Shown: one piece after another, positions 43,024 to 49,785 of the stretch | Position numbering within the stretch: the stretch's first letter is position 1 | Layout: each line of letters opens with the position of its first letter | Notes under the pieces: generated by a model | What the model was told of the DNA's origin: nothing | The model's input: only the letters and a program-made list of their open reading frames with translations | Database searches by the model: none | Translations under genes and position numbers: made by a program | NCBI GenBank assembly: GCA_030425385.1 | Contig: JAUIAH010000026.1 | Coordinates: 1 to 64,000 of the forward strand | DNA length: 64,000 nt | Origin: Verrucomicrobiia bacterium | Lineage (GTDB): Bacteria; Verrucomicrobiota; Verrucomicrobiia; Verrucomicrobiales; DEV007 | Direction: 5' to 3'

Positions 43024-43256
43024 GCCTCTGCCGTCACTTCAGGAATCTCTAACAAGCGATCCAACAGCAGGATGGGAAAACCATCTTCAATCGGATACGC
43101 GCGCTGCCCATCCTCGGTGACAAGGAAATCCTCAGCCTCACTAACCTGACTCCAGTGACTACGCTCGGCGGCATCGGCAGGATGTAAGACCTGCCCACTT
43201 CGAGGACATCGCAAGAGTGCTAGGAGTGCCGGTTCAATCTTCAGAGCTTCAGTCAT
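43020..43256 (-). CDS. Trm112-like small protein
   Basis: 78 residues. The N-terminal LLALLRCPRSGQVLHPADA and C-terminal RAYPIEDGFPILLLDRLLEI match the Trm112/YcaR family. In eukaryotes and archaea Trm112 activates methyltransferases; in bacteria it is a small zinc-ribbon-like protein, often of unknown partner. Only one cysteine of the usual zinc set is visible, so metal binding is doubtful. It overlaps the redoxin fusion by 8 bases and the oxidoreductase by 4. Confidence 0.82.
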   Translation of the reverse strand: MTEALKIEPALLALLRCPRSGQVLHPADAAERSHWSQVSEAEDFLVTEDGQRAYPIEDGFPILLLDRLLEIPEVTAEA

Positions 43257-44943
43257 CTACCGTGAACTGGTAGGTAGCAAAGAACATTTCTTGGAAACTT
43301 TGCTCTCCCCAGGTCACTGGGATCGTGGGGTCTGGATTGTGCGGATTGAGCGCCGAATTGTCCCAGGCATTGCGAATGACAAGCGTTGACCCTTTCGGAA
43401 GCTTGACGGGCTCTTCCAACACGTAAGTGCGTTGCCAGTTGAAGTTATAGTTAGGAACCGAAAGCAGATCCTCCTCCGACCCATCGGGTAGGCGCGCGTG
43501 AAAGCTCATCCGTTTCCCACGGTAATGCATGTGGGGATTCATCGCATACAGCGTGATATCTTTATTCGTCCGGCGTTCGTAGCTTTCGGCGTATTCCCGG
43601 TCACCTGGTGGGATGCGGAATTTCGGGTGAATCACGACTCCCGTGTGGACTTCTTTCTCCACAGGGCCCTCCGCCAAGAAGAAGCCAATCTGGGTTTCGT
43701 CTCTCTCGGGTTTGCCCGATGTGGTGTAGTGCAACTGGAACTTCAATCGGAAACCGGCAGGCAACCGCACGCCCATCCCGTCCGGCGCTGGCCAAGCCGC
43801 AGTTCCCGGAGCGTATCCCGTGAACCACTTCTCATGGCGCCCGCGACTCTTCGATCCTTTGGGATACCCGGTCACGACCACATGGTGCAGCACACGAGTA
43901 TTGTCAGGATTGACCTCCATGCCGCGAAGCCACACATCTTTGTCAAACGGTGTGTCCACCGTGACATACCGATAGTCAATCACGCCCTCAGCGGGAATCT
44001 CTTGCTTGGGTAACTTGAGGACATGGTCCGGCTCGCCCAAGCGCCACTCCGATTGCTCTGGCACGTATCCCTCCAAGGGATCAGGCCCCTCGCCACGAGG
44101 CGAGCCTGCCCGGATCCATGCCAGCACCGTCTCCGTCTCTTCAGGAGTCAGCCCCTGGTCTTCTTGAAATTTACCAATGTGAGGGTCCGCATGCCAAGGG
44201 GGCATCTGTTTGGTAGCGATGACTTCAGCCATCATCTCCGACCAGCCACGCACCTTGCGATGACTCGTCATCGCGAAAGGTCCGATACCTCCTTTCGTGT
44301 GACAAGTGACGCAACGCTTCATCAAGATAGGCGCCACCTGCTCCCCGTAGGATGGCACTTCTGAAGGCCCCATGGTGATCTTGCACCCAGGCGCCTCCGT
44401 CGACGCTACCGGGGGCGCTTCTTCTTTCAAAAGAGCATCAATCGCGTCACGCAGATAATGCTCCGTCGCTTCCGGTTTCTCTTTCTGATAGCTCAGGCGA
44501 TCATCAATCGCTCCCCGGTAGAAGACCTGCGGCCCTTCCGGTTTGATCAAGATCGCCTCCGCCGTCCGGTCGATTTCTAACAAATGCGCTACCGTCTGTG
44601 CCTCGTCTAGGAGGATGGGAAAGTCCATTCCGTAAGTAGCAGCCTCTGACACAATCTCCTCACGCGTATCCTGCAAATTCGCGTTGAGCATGCCGAAGAG
44701 AATTCCCTTCGCTTCGTAAGCGTCACGGAGCCGTTTCAATTCGGGAACGCGCTTCTGCACTAGTGGACAACCATTTCCCTGCACGAAAAGCACGATACCT
44801 TTCACGCCAGGCACCCGACAGTAATAATCGAGTTCATGGTAACGCCCCTCATGGTCCAAGAGGGCGAAATTGGGAACAGCAGAAGCCGCCGCTACCGCTG
44901 TACACAGCAAGGAGAAACAGGAGATTTGGAGAAATCGCATCAT
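43249..44943 (-). CDS. Redoxin / cytochrome c / copper-monooxygenase-like fusion
   Basis: 564 residues from ATG 44943 (a second ATG follows immediately), which begins the signal peptide (MMRFLQISCFSLLCTAVAAASA). A thioredoxin-fold redoxin domain (about residues 24-165) has a single active-site cysteine (GNGCPLVQ) instead of CxxC. A c-type cytochrome (CVTCHTKGG, with QMPPWH as probable axial Met) follows. The last 300 residues resemble copper type II ascorbate-dependent monooxygenases: RVLHHVVVTG, FQLHYTTSG and NPHMHYRGKRM supply His ligands. It should be periplasmic. This three-part architecture is frequent in PVC bacteria and its substrate is unknown. The sigma factor gene lies 130 bases upstream. 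Confidence 0.88.
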   Translation of the reverse strand: MMRFLQISCFSLLCTAVAAASAVPNFALLDHEGRYHELDYYCRVPGVKGIVLFVQGNGCPLVQKRVPELKRLRDAYEAKGILFGMLNANLQDTREEIVSEAATYGMDFPILLDEAQTVAHLLEIDRTAEAILIKPEGPQVFYRGAIDDRLSYQKEKPEATEHYLRDAIDALLKEEAPPVASTEAPGCKITMGPSEVPSYGEQVAPILMKRCVTCHTKGGIGPFAMTSHRKVRGWSEMMAEVIATKQMPPWHADPHIGKFQEDQGLTPEETETVLAWIRAGSPRGEGPDPLEGYVPEQSEWRLGEPDHVLKLPKQEIPAEGVIDYRYVTVDTPFDKDVWLRGMEVNPDNTRVLHHVVVTGYPKGSKSRGRHEKWFTGYAPGTAAWPAPDGMGVRLPAGFRLKFQLHYTTSGKPERDETQIGFFLAEGPVEKEVHTGVVIHPKFRIPPGDREYAESYERRTNKDITLYAMNPHMHYRGKRMSFHARLPDGSEEDLLSVPNYNFNWQRTYVLEEPVKLPKGSTLVIRNAWDNSALNPHNPDPTIPVTWGEQSFQEMFFATYQFTVDD

Positions 44944-45073
44944 CGTGATCTCTGAAGAAACCCCTGGAGCGCGTCCTGTCGCTGCCGAAATCGTTTCAGA
45001 CTGTTGCAAAGACGCTCTGCTCAATCTCATCGACCCCACACTCTGCCTCTTTGCACGAGGTTGGAACTCGAGC

Positions 45074-47530
45074 CTAGCGTGAAGCGAGGAAATCGAGACG
45101 TTCGCGCAAGTCTGTCAGCGATTGTTCGCTGAAAGCGACATCGGGGCGCTCTTCTAAACTTGGTTTGGGATGGGCAGCCCTAAGGGCACGATCGATGATC
45201 GCCGCGAAATCAGCGCGCGTCGCGTGATCTTGAATCTCGGACAACCAAGCACGCGCTTCTTCCGGGTCGGCAGATGACCGATGCACCACGCGCTCGATGA
45301 GTCGACCCACGAGCGGATCGCGAGAGCGCGATGGGGGCAGTTTCAGCACCATCGACTTCGCACGCTCTGGCTTAAGCGCGGCCACCAAATCGATCTCGGC
45401 AAGCTTGGCACGATAGAAATCGGCACTGTCCTCGCCTAACGCTTGCACCCACTGATCAAACCCTGATTTGTCCCCACGGACAATCCATCCGAGACCGAAA
45501 CTGTGCATGACGAGGGCCCGCGTTTCTGGATTCCGGACACGCGCTAAAGCAGCTAGGCCATCCTGCGGCGACTGTTGGCCAAAGCGATAGAAGGCCTGTT
45601 CAAGAACGGCCCGTTGATTGGCCAGGCTCTCGATATCTTGCGACCAAAGCACAGCTTCTTCCGGGGTCAGTTGCGCCGCAGCCAATCCAAAGAGCGCAGA
45701 TGCCTGCTCGACCTCCTGAAAGCCATCGAGCCATTCCCTCGAATGCGCACTGGATTGTGGCACCCACTCTTCGAATACCGTGAGAGCAAGCTCCCAAGGA
45801 TTCTGTGAGGATGGGCGTTCAAGCGCCCATTCCATCGCTCGCGTTGGCTCGGAAGCCGACCAGACCCGCGCGACAGCACGCTGCGCGGCGGGCCGTTCGC
45901 TATCCTGCAATTGGGTCGCCCATGCTGCCGCCGCAATGGGATCGCTCAACGTCCAATGGGCGACAATTTGTGAAAGGACTCGAGTGGTGCGCTCTCCTTC
46001 AGGCAACTGACTCAACCAATCTGCCACCGCCTGAGGATCACGATCAAAGAGAAGTGGCAACGTCGCCGACCAGACAGCAGTCTTAGTATGCCCAGCCGCC
46101 TGCGACGTTTCGGCAATGCTCGTGGCCAACGACTCACCCTCTGGCAAGTTCACCAACCAATGGAGAACCGCCTCACTGTCCTTTGCAGGGTCCACAATAG
46201 CCCGCGCCAAAGTATCAACGTGCTCCTCCCGATTGTGGGTCCGTCCCACTAACCAATCGTAGGCGGCATCGATGTTTTCCCGGCCTAACTGATGCAAGAC
46301 GACCGCAAAGGCCGATTGTTCCGCTTCCGCCTGACGAGGAAGAGCGCGCACCCACGCCAGGGCTGCCAAGGAATCCTCCTGCATCCATCTTTCTAACGGA
46401 ATAGCCATCGACTCTTCAAGAGTCTCTCGATGGGGATCTGTGAGGGCCTCGCTCTCCATCAGATCGGAGATGACACGCGCATTGCGAGGGGAATCGAGCC
46501 TCGTCCAGCGAGTGAAGAGATCTAGCAGATAGGCGGCGTCATCACGTCCCCGCAAGTAGACGGTGAGGCGTTCCAGTGCTTCCTCGCGCGGACTGGGTTC
46601 GAGTCGATAAATGCCTTCGATGTCATCGATCGCCAACCGGGCGGCCCTGGACAGGTGTGGAACCTGCCCAAGGCCGGGGTTGTCAACGATTGCAGGGTTG
46701 AAGGGGCTGACATCCGGCGTCGACTCCGCGAGTGCCGAAGAGGGTTGGAAAAGGTGTTGATGTGAGAGCCATCCGGTGCTCACGACGGCGATGGCCGCGA
46801 GCGCGAGGGTGCCCGTGGAAGGGGTCCATCCGTTCGTGAGTTGACTCCACCACGAAGGGGTGGCTGCACTACTAAGGGGTGGCACTGAGCGCAGGGCCGA
46901 CTCCGCCAGTTGATGCGCGAGGAAGTGCGGAGGCGTCATCGCATCCACGCTCAGAATCTGCGCGCCCATGACACCGGCTGGCAGTGCCAATCCCCGCCTG
47001 GCAACGAGGGAGCGTAAACTCTCGGTCGCCCGCTCCACCCGCTTCTGAGCGGCACGCGGCTGAATCCCATACAATTCCCCAATCGCCTCAGCACTCTGAC
47101 CATCATAATAGCGGAGGAAGAGCAACGTGCGCTGATTGTCGGGCAAGCCAGCCAAGGCTTCGCGCACGGCACCAGCGAGTTCATCGCTCACAGCTTGCCC
47201 TTCACGAGCGATCGTTTCGCGGCGGGCGGCCTCCTCCTCGCGGGCTTGTCGACGTTGTTCGGTGCGCATGGTTTGAGCGATTTGTTTCTCGGTGACTCGG
47301 TAGAGCCAGGCAGGCAGGCTGAGGATCTTCTCTTGCTGGCGAGCGCTCTTGGCCAGAGCACAGAGGACATTCTGACTGACCTCTTCAGCCATGGGCGCAC
47401 TGCGGAGGCGCCGTTTGGCCAAGCCGTAGATAAGAGGAAGATGCCGACGAACCAACTCGCGGAAGGCTTCTTGGTCGTCTTTCTGCCCGTAGGCGGCCAG
47501 GAGGCTGGCATCCTCCATCCCGTCGTGCAT
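45074..47530 (-). CDS. ECF sigma factor with membrane anchor and large periplasmic repeat domain
   Basis: 818 residues. Region 2 (about residues 25-95: LVRRHLPLIYGLAKRRL, AEEVSQNVLCALAKSA, LSLPAWLYRVTEKQIAQ) and region 4 (about 120-178: EALAGLPDNQRTLLFLRYYD, IGELYGIQPRAAQKRVERA) form an ECF sigma factor. A transmembrane helix (240-256, TLALAAIAVVSTGWL) follows, then about 560 residues of helical repeats of the form A-x-x-W...LP (e.g. AAAWATQLQ, AMEWALERP, AVADWLSQLPEGE). The repeats should lie in the periplasm and may act as a built-in anti-sigma or sensor. The start is 3 bases from the stop of the secreted-protein gene upstream, so both are on one mRNA. Confidence 0.9.
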   Translation of the reverse strand: MHDGMEDASLLAAYGQKDDQEAFRELVRRHLPLIYGLAKRRLRSAPMAEEVSQNVLCALAKSARQQEKILSLPAWLYRVTEKQIAQTMRTEQRRQAREEEAARRETIAREGQAVSDELAGAVREALAGLPDNQRTLLFLRYYDGQSAEAIGELYGIQPRAAQKRVERATESLRSLVARRGLALPAGVMGAQILSVDAMTPPHFLAHQLAESALRSVPPLSSAATPSWWSQLTNGWTPSTGTLALAAIAVVSTGWLSHQHLFQPSSALAESTPDVSPFNPAIVDNPGLGQVPHLSRAARLAIDDIEGIYRLEPSPREEALERLTVYLRGRDDAAYLLDLFTRWTRLDSPRNARVISDLMESEALTDPHRETLEESMAIPLERWMQEDSLAALAWVRALPRQAEAEQSAFAVVLHQLGRENIDAAYDWLVGRTHNREEHVDTLARAIVDPAKDSEAVLHWLVNLPEGESLATSIAETSQAAGHTKTAVWSATLPLLFDRDPQAVADWLSQLPEGERTTRVLSQIVAHWTLSDPIAAAAWATQLQDSERPAAQRAVARVWSASEPTRAMEWALERPSSQNPWELALTVFEEWVPQSSAHSREWLDGFQEVEQASALFGLAAAQLTPEEAVLWSQDIESLANQRAVLEQAFYRFGQQSPQDGLAALARVRNPETRALVMHSFGLGWIVRGDKSGFDQWVQALGEDSADFYRAKLAEIDLVAALKPERAKSMVLKLPPSRSRDPLVGRLIERVVHRSSADPEEARAWLSEIQDHATRADFAAIIDRALRAAHPKPSLEERPDVAFSEQSLTDLRERLDFLASR

Positions 47531-47533
47531 GCG

Positions 47534-48739
47534 TTAGTCTAACAAAGTGGTCTTGATCCGGAACAGCTTGAGTCCCATCTCGTCAATGGGAGCTACCGAG
47601 CGAAGGGTGATCTTTTGGAAATTCGGAGCCGTCTCAGCTGCTTCGAGTACTTCAAAGTGGTCGTCAGCCATTTCCCATTGGCGCCCATTGCGAGAGCCTT
47701 CGATCGCTGCAGCCATCCCGATCGCATCGACTCGTCGCGTCACGGTGAGGGTCACATACCAGGCGCCTTGCAAAGCCACTAAGCGAAGGTCGACGGGATG
47801 TTTCTCCGCACCGGAAAAGGGATCACTGCCCAAGAAATACTCGGTGATGTCCTCAATGCCATCGCCATCTGAGTCAGCGGTGGGATCTGGCTGCTCATTC
47901 TCTTCTAACGCTAATGCCTCTTCCAGCCCATCCGTCCAATCGAGAAAGTCCTTCTCCAAATGAGCGAGGTCCAAGGAGAAATCGAAGAGAATGGCTCCAA
48001 TGGTGCGCTTGATAGGTTCGGCACCATCGGGAGTCGGTTTCTGATAGATCACCTCGACCACCGCTTCTTCACCGAATTGAAACCATCCGTCCGAGGGTCG
48101 CTTCACCCGATAGGTCGCAATGAGTTCATCGGGAGTGGCGCCGTAGCCCAACTCTTCCAATTCTGGCTGGCATGGCGCACTCCCACCGTAGTTCAAGGCA
48201 GAGTGGTGCCGGCCTACCCGCACAGTGAGCCGTTGGAAGGTCTCGAAGTCCACGCCGCCATCGCGATAATAAGAAACTTGAATACCATGCGAGGGCTGAT
48301 CTTCCTCCGTGACAGCTTCGGTCATGAGACGGACAGCAATGTCGTCCAACTGAATGGGCGGTTTCGTAGCTTCTCCCTCCAACGTGTCTTCCACCTCTGG
48401 ATCGATGGGCTGCGAGGGCAACTGCCCCTCGGCGACTTCTCCCGGATCGGCACCTTCGCGGGTGGGACCCTCATCGCTCTCGGGGAGCAGCGGCTCGGGC
48501 GGCTTCGGAGCGAGTTCGGGGTCCGACAACTCGTTGTTGGGACCGACGAATGCCCCATCAAAGGGATCTTGGGGGGTGTACGTCCCGGGCACCGGTGTCC
48601 GTTGCTCTTGAAATTCCCCGTTGGGCCCCACAATTCCGTGAGATTCTTCCTCAGCCAGGCCGCTCCCACCCAGCAGCGACCAAGCGCCGAGGACGCAGGT
48701 CAGGCGAGCTTTCGAAGAGAAGTGAGGAATTCGGATCAT
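47534..48739 (-). CDS. Secreted protein of unknown function
   Basis: 401 residues with a signal peptide (MIRIPHFSSKARLTCVLGAWSLLGGSGLAE). A proline/acidic linker of about 100 residues (PKPPEPLLPESDEGPT...) precedes a beta-rich region. A calcium-type loop (TADSDGDGIEDITEYFLG) lies near residue 300, followed by a C-terminal beta domain. I do not recognise the family. It is directly upstream of the membrane-anchored sigma factor and downstream of the 28-bp triple half-site element, so it may be a partner or signal of that sigma factor. That is inference from position only. Confidence 0.72.
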   Translation of the reverse strand: MIRIPHFSSKARLTCVLGAWSLLGGSGLAEEESHGIVGPNGEFQEQRTPVPGTYTPQDPFDGAFVGPNNELSDPELAPKPPEPLLPESDEGPTREGADPGEVAEGQLPSQPIDPEVEDTLEGEATKPPIQLDDIAVRLMTEAVTEEDQPSHGIQVSYYRDGGVDFETFQRLTVRVGRHHSALNYGGSAPCQPELEELGYGATPDELIATYRVKRPSDGWFQFGEEAVVEVIYQKPTPDGAEPIKRTIGAILFDFSLDLAHLEKDFLDWTDGLEEALALEENEQPDPTADSDGDGIEDITEYFLGSDPFSGAEKHPVDLRLVALQGAWYVTLTVTRRVDAIGMAAAIEGSRNGRQWEMADDHFEVLEAAETAPNFQKITLRSVAPIDEMGLKLFRIKTTLLD

Positions 48740-48786
48740 GAGACGTTCTCAAAAGGGTTGTTGCCGCTAAACGGGACGAAGCGACG

Positions 48787-48814
48787 AGAAAGTTCGAACT
48801 TTCTGCAGAAAGTT
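48787..48814. promoter_or_regulatory. Triple half-site palindromic operator candidate
   Basis: Three 8-base half-sites: AGAAAGTT (48787-48794), AACTTTCT (48797-48804), AGAAAGTT (48807-48814). Adjacent ones alternate in orientation, giving two overlapping perfect 18-bp palindromes (48787-48804 and 48797-48814). Spacing between starts is exactly 10 bases, one helical turn. A weaker copy AGAAAGAG lies at 48828-48835. The element ends 23 bases from the stop of the upstream gene and lies 47 bases before the ATG of the next minus-strand gene, as an operator would. It could alternatively form hairpins in RNA, but no U-tract follows. Confidence 0.6.
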
Positions 48815-48837
48815 TGCCAAGCTGTCGAGAAAGAGCC

Positions 48838-49785
48838 TCATTCCGAACGGATCCATTGCTGGATATCATTGAGGCTGAGGGGCTTCCACCGCTCGCGAAT
48901 CTCTGCGAAGACGGAGGTAATTTCGGGGCCTTCATGGAACGAGAGCCACCCGTTGAGAACGGTCGTTTGTCCTGGAGCCGTATCGGGAAATTGAGGATCG
49001 GCGTGCAAACAGGGCACCGGCGGATTGGCCCACGCACGCTGGCAAGGCTCCCAGGCAGTCACGATCCACTGCCCTCCGCGAGCCGATTCTACGGCGACAA
49101 AGGGTGCTTGAAGCGTCTTATTCGCATTCGTCTGAGCCTCAAACCCGCGTGCGCCTTTCAACATGACGCAATTCTGCACGCGCAAATCCGAAAGCAGATC
49201 CGCGGTCCCGTTGTGCAACCACATGACCATGGCCACGTGATCCCTCTTTGGGAGAATCAGCGTTCCGAATCGGATTCCATTGGGCAATGCGCGTTCCATC
49301 TTCAAGTGCCCCTCAGGGAGGATCTCCCACTCTTGCTGGGCCAAGGTTACCCCTCGGCCACTCCAAATGGTGTCGATGTGGGTGTGGGCGAGATACGTCA
49401 GGCCAAGGTTCGACCAGAGCGCTTCGGGCACATCCACCACCACGTAGCTGGTGGCGTCCCAGGGCGTGAACACGCTGATCTTCGTCTCACGTTGGGGATC
49501 GATGGCGCCATCGAGAAACCCAATGCGTGGATGACGCCCGCCCGGATACGGCAAGACGCGGAGGCCCTCAACAGCCTTGAGAGGACTCACGTCGCGCAGG
49601 GCTACCGCGATGTCGGGAAACGGCATGCCCGTCGCTGCCTGAATCTCATGCATCTGATATCCATGAGCGCGCATGTGGCCTAACCAAGCCACCAAATCCT
49701 CTCGATCACGGGGAGGCCGTGGTTCTCCCGAGGCTGTCCACGCGACCACCAGCAAGCAGACTCCAGCGAGGCTGAACGGTTTCAT
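48838..49785 (-). CDS. Secreted protein of unknown function
   Basis: 315 residues with a signal peptide (MKPFSLAGVCLLVVAWTASGE). It is beta-rich, with PWDATSYVVVDVPEALWS, YLAHTHIDTIWSG and a C-terminal tryptophan-rich block (GGQWIVTAWEPCQRAW). Proteins of this kind recur in PVC genomes without assigned function; a carbohydrate role is possible but not shown. It begins immediately after a 30-codon minus-strand frame (TGAATG junction) and precedes the triple half-site element. Confidence 0.72.
   Translation of the reverse strand: MKPFSLAGVCLLVVAWTASGEPRPPRDREDLVAWLGHMRAHGYQMHEIQAATGMPFPDIAVALRDVSPLKAVEGLRVLPYPGGRHPRIGFLDGAIDPQRETKISVFTPWDATSYVVVDVPEALWSNLGLTYLAHTHIDTIWSGRGVTLAQQEWEILPEGHLKMERALPNGIRFGTLILPKRDHVAMVMWLHNGTADLLSDLRVQNCVMLKGARGFEAQTNANKTLQAPFVAVESARGGQWIVTAWEPCQRAWANPPVPCLHADPQFPDTAPGQTTVLNGWLSFHEGPEITSVFAEIRERWKPLSLNDIQQWIRSE

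Follow-up and report, generated by a model that had tools for sequence, protein, structure and literature searches.

A double palindrome adjoins a conserved 26-bp element ahead of a secreted-protein/ECF sigma factor gene pair in a verrucomicrobial genus

What does a perfectly symmetric DNA structure do when it lies in a short gap between two genes, and does it act alone or belong to something larger? This question is raised by the window analysed here (the whole stretch of 64,000 nucleotides), in which a gap of 98 bp between two minus-strand genes (48740-48837) holds a double palindrome. Positions 48787-48814 read AGAAAGTT-CG-AACTTTCT-GC-AGAAAGTT, that is, two overlapping perfect 18-bp palindromes whose symmetry includes the centres CG and GC and whose half-sites follow one another in exact 10-bp steps. 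The original prediction had described this arrangement, together with a weaker copy 21 bases further on, and both are found exactly where it placed them:

48787-48794, 48797-48804 and 48807-48814, no strand assigned: three 8-bp half-sites in alternating orientation
48828-48835, plus strand: weaker half-site AGAAAGAG, 21 bases past 48807

Two overlapping perfect palindromes exceed chance. From base composition, 0.29 perfect 18-bp palindromes are expected in the window; two are found, and both are this pair. Among 200 windows simulated with a first-order Markov model, 48 had at least one perfect 18-bp palindrome and none had two overlapping ones, which bears out the earlier view that a chance origin is unlikely. 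The pattern is single-copy in the 8.0-Mb draft genome: no further copy exists within one mismatch, and one other place (C18:2965) matches with two. A 101-base similarity search gave no second copy of the gap either.

The double palindrome lies 47 bp before the ATG of a 401-aa protein and 23 bp past the stop of a 315-aa gene. Its position upstream of a secreted-protein/ECF sigma pair is thus as first described, and it is also just downstream of another gene. The genes around it are as follows:

45074-47530, minus strand: 818-aa ECF sigma factor with regions 2 and 4 (Pfam, TIGR02937) and a long C-terminal extension
47534-48739, minus strand: 401-aa protein, first gene of the pair, probably secreted, with a moderately hydrophobic N-terminus
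48838-49785, minus strand: 315-aa gene, upstream in the same direction, outside the module and conserved elsewhere without it

The 818-aa protein is an ECF sigma factor by its matches to PF04542 (E 1.9e-10), PF08281 (E 2.5e-8) and TIGR02937 (E 2.7e-22), and solved ECF sigma structures match its sigma domain. At E 0.001, no structure chain matched beyond residue 177 and no Pfam domain was found besides the sigma domains. The original prediction suggested a periplasmic extension of this factor as the sensor; a periplasmic location is weakly suggested by a possible membrane segment at about residues 237-256, where the hydropathy maximum is only 1.33 and residues 180-199 are similar. The secretion of the 401-aa protein is judged from hydropathy, without a signal-peptide predictor (best 19-residue mean 1.15). 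This protein has no Pfam or NCBIfam match and no relatives in a search of genome contigs, and its C-terminal half resembles the first genes of paralogous modules. The 315-aa gene has 51 related loci in genome contigs, nearly all labelled as Planctomycetota or Verrucomicrobiota groups, and one clear orthologue in each of the genus members G001, G002 and G003. The 401-aa protein was not found beside these orthologues, so that the gap is not directly comparable by synteny. As side observations on the neighbourhood, the 315-aa protein is itself probably secreted, lacks a Pfam or NCBIfam match and has relatives at about 40-67% identity; the sigma extension is weakly matched (24%, E 3e-5) by the gene that converges on its orthologue in G001 (L138:3509-3997); and the product of the minus-strand gene downstream of the pair (43249-45039) joins a redoxin-like domain to a C-terminal domain like that of copper type II monooxygenases.

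The 401/818 pair has paralogous modules in its own genome and in G002 and G003, and we compared the leaders of twelve first genes: the window, L126, L127, L129, L130 (G003:C324), L131, L132, L133, L134, L136 (G002:C172), L057 and L201 (G000:C30, also L128). Three further sigma loci, L135, L232 and L233, show no leader, as they begin too near the sigma gene or inside it. This comparison revealed a conserved element of 26 bp, GTC[G/T]C-N13-GCGGCA[A/G]C, on the minus strand of the window at 48785-48760. It is present in nine of the twelve leaders and in a looser form in a tenth, and it adjoins the double palindrome:

48760-48767, minus strand: GCGGCAAC, a -10-like element, 13 bp from GTCGC in nine leaders and 12 bp in the looser tenth
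48781-48785, minus strand: GTCGC, a -35-like element; GTC in all ten leaders with the element, GTC[GT]C in nine
48786-48805, minus strand: a 20-bp A/T-rich box that abuts the GTC element on its upstream side, common to the module leaders

The leader closest to that of the window is L130. Both carry CGAAYTTTCTCGTCGC-N12-AGCGGCAACAA, and the exact CGAAYTTTCTCGTCGC occurs at only two places in four genus genomes, namely these two leaders. L131 and L127 have GTCGC-N13-GYGGCRAC in common, and scans gave GTCTC-N13-[GC]CGGCA[AG]C in L126, L133, L134, L136 and L057. L201 reads GTCCG with a spacer one base shorter; in 1.99 Mb of other sequence, counting both strands, there are 99 instances of this loose form, and in 13 of them the 20 bp upstream are A/T-rich. 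The element is absent from L129, where no sigma gene is seen downstream, and from L132, where there is one. The contig of L131 ends before any sigma gene, and L136 has none downstream within the stretch fetched. Some copies of the module look degenerate and keep the leader motif all the same: the first gene is interrupted in L127 and L136, the sigma frame of L057 has stops, and the fetched stretch of L136 lacks a downstream sigma gene.

When the nine loci were scored with leave-one-out matrices, L201 being excluded for its spacer, the site ranked first in seven, second in L131 and eighth in L057. When a 62-position sequence model of the nine leaders was run against 57 related genomes, all nine scored at least 22.9 bits and no other place exceeded 16.2 bits. 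The model was built from these leaders, and the motif was partly derived from the leaders tested, so their own recovery is expected; the information lies in the absence of others. L201 was not recovered by this model at E 10 under strict filters. The order was covered with 386 genomes, and the best match outside the genus (G129, 19.6 bits, E 0.0028), which lies inside a CheB-like gene and antisense to it, is attributed to chance. Of the sigma loci that are more distant, L234 and L235 lack a loose core; L236 has one about 590 bp from the sigma frame, likewise attributed to chance. In the genus member G001 the motif is absent and no sigma match reaches E 1e-20. As judged from these searches, the motif appears confined to this module. 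Taken as a bare pattern, GTCRC-N13-GYGGCRAC gave 56 matches in seven genomes against 49 for its reversed control, hardly an excess, so the motif's weight rests on its position; of 30 matches that were given loci, four are known module leaders and no further module leader was seen among the other 26.

Directly upstream of the element, the leaders are rich in A and T. Aligned on GTC, the ten leaders have an A/T fraction of 0.67 at -20 to -11 and 0.69 at -10 to -1, against 0.42-0.46 in each of the eight decades from -100 to -21 (overall about 68% in the box against 43%). The maxima lie about 11 bp apart, near -16/-15 and -5/-4, and so echo the 10-bp step of the half-sites. Over the 18 bp that precede GTC, shuffling within rows gave an equally strong periodicity of 10-11 bp in 56 of 20,000 trials, or in 89 of 20,000 once the window copy had been removed; the range of 10-11 bp was picked after the profile was seen. 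Two of the half-sites, centred at 48790.5 and 48800.5, sit in this box and the third lies one turn further upstream. Comparison of the leaders shows that the 26-bp element and the A/T-rich box recur together ahead of the paralogous secreted-protein/sigma modules of the genus. The A/T-rich box leaves the perfect symmetry, present twice, unexplained.

The explanation that we tentatively prefer, at somewhat less than even confidence, is that the double palindrome is the upstream part, an UP element or an activator box, of a putative autoregulated ECF promoter, and that this part happens to be perfectly symmetric here. On the minus strand the order would be the A/T-rich box with its half-sites, the -35-like GTCGC, 13 bp, the -10-like GCGGCAAC, 20 bp, the ATG of the 401-aa protein and then the sigma gene. 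The 26-bp element would be the promoter, and the sigma factor of each module would read its own element. The A/T tracts, which lie upstream of the -35 at a spacing of about one turn, would aid the binding of RNA polymerase or form an activator site, and those of the window copy would have become perfectly symmetric via selection for a regulator or via mutation. The distance from GTC[GT]C to GCGGCA[AG]C is constant and the sequence between them variable, which fits a promoter. An autoregulated ECF factor leads one to look for a shared promoter-like motif in front of the group's sigma operons; here nine of the twelve leaders and the looser tenth have it and two are without it. In the recognition-helix region of the sigma factors, AQKR is found in nine of ten aligned sequences, that of the window included, and the tenth, L057, is disrupted there. 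A review puts autoregulation at about 55% among ECFs that have a predicted regulon (PMC8103513). Another assignment, with GAAA/GAAC as -35 and [CT]GTC as -10, was dropped, as its spacing varied by several bases between leaders in a hand count and that of GTC to GCGGC was constant.

In bacterial promoters, UP elements consist of A/T-rich tracts that adjoin the -35 on its upstream side and are spaced by about one helical turn; they need no palindromic form. The tracts described here resemble them by their spacing and by their place at the -35-like site; the likeness holds if the element is a promoter, and both the promoter and the binding of the alpha subunit are putative.

The same palindromes could instead be a dedicated operator, to which a dimeric regulator other than the sigma factor would bind cooperatively on one face of the helix and activate or repress the operon. 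The 10-bp register and the excess of symmetry over chance speak for such a site. Moreover, L130 keeps the dyad by a paired change, AGAAAG/CTTTCT to AGAAAA/TTTTCT, and G002:C172 carries AACTTTTTCATGAAAAGTT at the same place. The paired change of the arms (G-C to A-T) hints at selection on the dyad, and a template-switch mutation could do likewise. What weakens the operator is its poor conservation. In the 32 nt before GTC, scored in nine leaders with L201 left out, the best inverted repeat with 8-bp arms pairs at 8/8 positions in the window; L130 and L136 reach 7/8 each and the remaining six leaders 5/8, and these values were reached in fractions of 0.001, 0.06, 0.05 and 0.70-0.93 of 2000 shuffles, respectively. 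A strong inverted repeat is thus found in only three of nine scored leaders, two of them, L130 and L136, marginal against shuffles, and there is no second copy in the genome. As far as these leaders tell, the relatives keep an A/T-rich stretch, and the perfect symmetry is mostly peculiar to the window copy. The operator therefore stays a rival and not a conclusion, since template switching could give the paired change and most scored leaders lack the dyad; we consider it unlikely, with a good deal of weight left to it. The original prediction, which took the palindrome as a possible operator of the gene pair and made its recurrence ahead of related loci the check, holds in one respect, as the palindrome lies in a control region that adjoins the conserved 26-bp element and recurs with it. 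It does not hold for a conserved operator, as the palindrome itself mostly fails to recur.

Symmetry might also have arisen by mutation, through template switching that corrected a pre-existing, imperfect inverted repeat of A/T tracts (quasipalindrome correction); it would then add no function to that of the A/T-rich box. Template-switch mutation at quasipalindromes is reported in E. coli (PMC7202029), and imperfect versions stand at the same place in two related leaders. However, two overlapping perfect palindromes would require two events or a further duplication, and we regard this origin as improbable.

A role in RNA is the least credible of the explanations, and we hold it to be very improbable. 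The palindromes would then be a transcribed hairpin or terminator of the upstream 315-aa gene, whose transcript could run through the gap, and a 7-bp hairpin is indeed predicted. Against this, folding is not clearly better than that of shuffles (z -1.27 and -0.35), no intrinsic terminator (a G+C-rich hairpin with a T run after it) is called there, and no Rfam match reaches the gathering threshold. A stem between GTCGC and GCGGC was tried and given up: in none of its pairs have both partners changed, and one of them fails to form in five of nine leaders. A transcribed hairpin, which the original prediction had named as the finding that would overturn it, is thus disfavoured.

A fourth alternative concerns the 26-bp element rather than the palindrome. 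The element may open a short leader ORF, or it may begin an N-terminal extension (start-Ser-x-x-x-x-x-Arg-Gln), in which case the A/T-rich box and palindrome would be an initiation region and the promoter would lie further upstream. A/T-rich sequence before a start codon is ordinary. GTC overlaps an ATG in four, a TTG in three and a CTG in one of the ten leaders. The start-Ser-x5-Arg-Gln frame is present in most of these eight and stops after 10-16 codons in L127 (MSPKFDGRQLQ-stop), L131, L134 (ten codons) and L201; in L126, L133, L136 and L057 the frame enters the main gene, with RQ or similar residues in register. With the start codons judged by eye, the end of the element stands 20 nt from the start codon in the window and in L201, 19 in L130, 62 in L127, 28 in L131, 32 in L126, 18 in L134, and 11 in L133, L136 and L057. 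The last three distances tell against a promoter, as they would leave almost no 5′ leader; together with the overlap of GTC with possible start codons, they led us to grade the promoter lower.

Nonetheless, a start codon and an open frame through the element are not common to all copies, eight of ten having a possible start. The window and L130 read TCG at that place, and the frame of the window stops after six codons inside the element. Positions fixed at the base level encode different residues (P, H, Q or L at the third codon), the information is nearly even over the codon positions (1.07, 0.95 and 0.88 bits), and the shorter spacer of L201 breaks the frame. The even conservation and the early stop in the window indicate that the element is not simply coding. 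Conservation at the base level is favoured on these grounds, and the translational leader, a real rival, is to our mind a rather doubtful one. In a subgroup, a common further stretch extends past the second box (L133:135-175, L136:378-420 and L057:383-425), with an open frame [ML]S[HQ]xxxxRQL into the main gene. Judging by this frame, the element may be partly coding in L133, L136 and L057.

The putative promoter invites comparison with that of ECF41, whose sigma factor controls an operon of a neighbouring gene and the sigma gene itself via TGTCACA-n16-CGTC; the authors of that work describe these as the sole targets (PMC3426412). The likeness lies in a C-terminally extended sigma factor, an adjacent partner gene, a bipartite element ahead of the pair and few other targets. 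The register also matches: the window reads CGTCGCT-n16-CAAC, with GTC in the -35 box and the same 16-bp spacing, and its CAAC (48763-48760) falls at the position of the ECF41 CGTC. ACA and CGTC themselves do not agree, and no Pfam match beyond the sigma domains (E 0.001) corresponds to a SnoaL_2 domain at the C-terminus. While ECF41 has TGTCACA/CGTC and a SnoaL_2-type extension (PMC3426412), the module described here has GTC[GT]C/GCGGCA[AG]C and a probably secreted partner. More generally, the -10-like CA[AG]C differs from the usual CGTC of ECF promoters and the -35-like GTC from the usual AAC. ECF groups with membrane-anchored C-terminal extensions, such as ECF48, ECF52 and ECF53, share with the 818-aa protein a sigma domain followed by a long extension; anchoring is only weakly suggested here, and, unlike them, the window protein has no zinc-finger or carbohydrate-binding domain (Pfam, E 0.001) (PMC8999054). 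Our literature searches found no paper on this module, which is not proof of absence.

One may go further and see in these loci an extended ECF sigma family specific to the genus, each member with a secreted partner and its own unusual promoter (GTC[G/T]C-N13-GCGGCA[A/G]C, preceded by a phased A/T box), to which this copy would add a cooperative operator of three half-sites. Taken as a whole, we think this fuller picture rather unlikely.

If the promoter that we tentatively prefer is real, a multi-copy ECF family of a little-studied verrucomicrobial genus would gain a predicted promoter whose -35/-10 pair is non-standard, and the self-regulation of each sigma/secreted-protein pair would become directly testable. 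More broadly, the case would show that a striking palindrome can be the mere visible edge of a larger control region, which the comparison of paralogues exposes.
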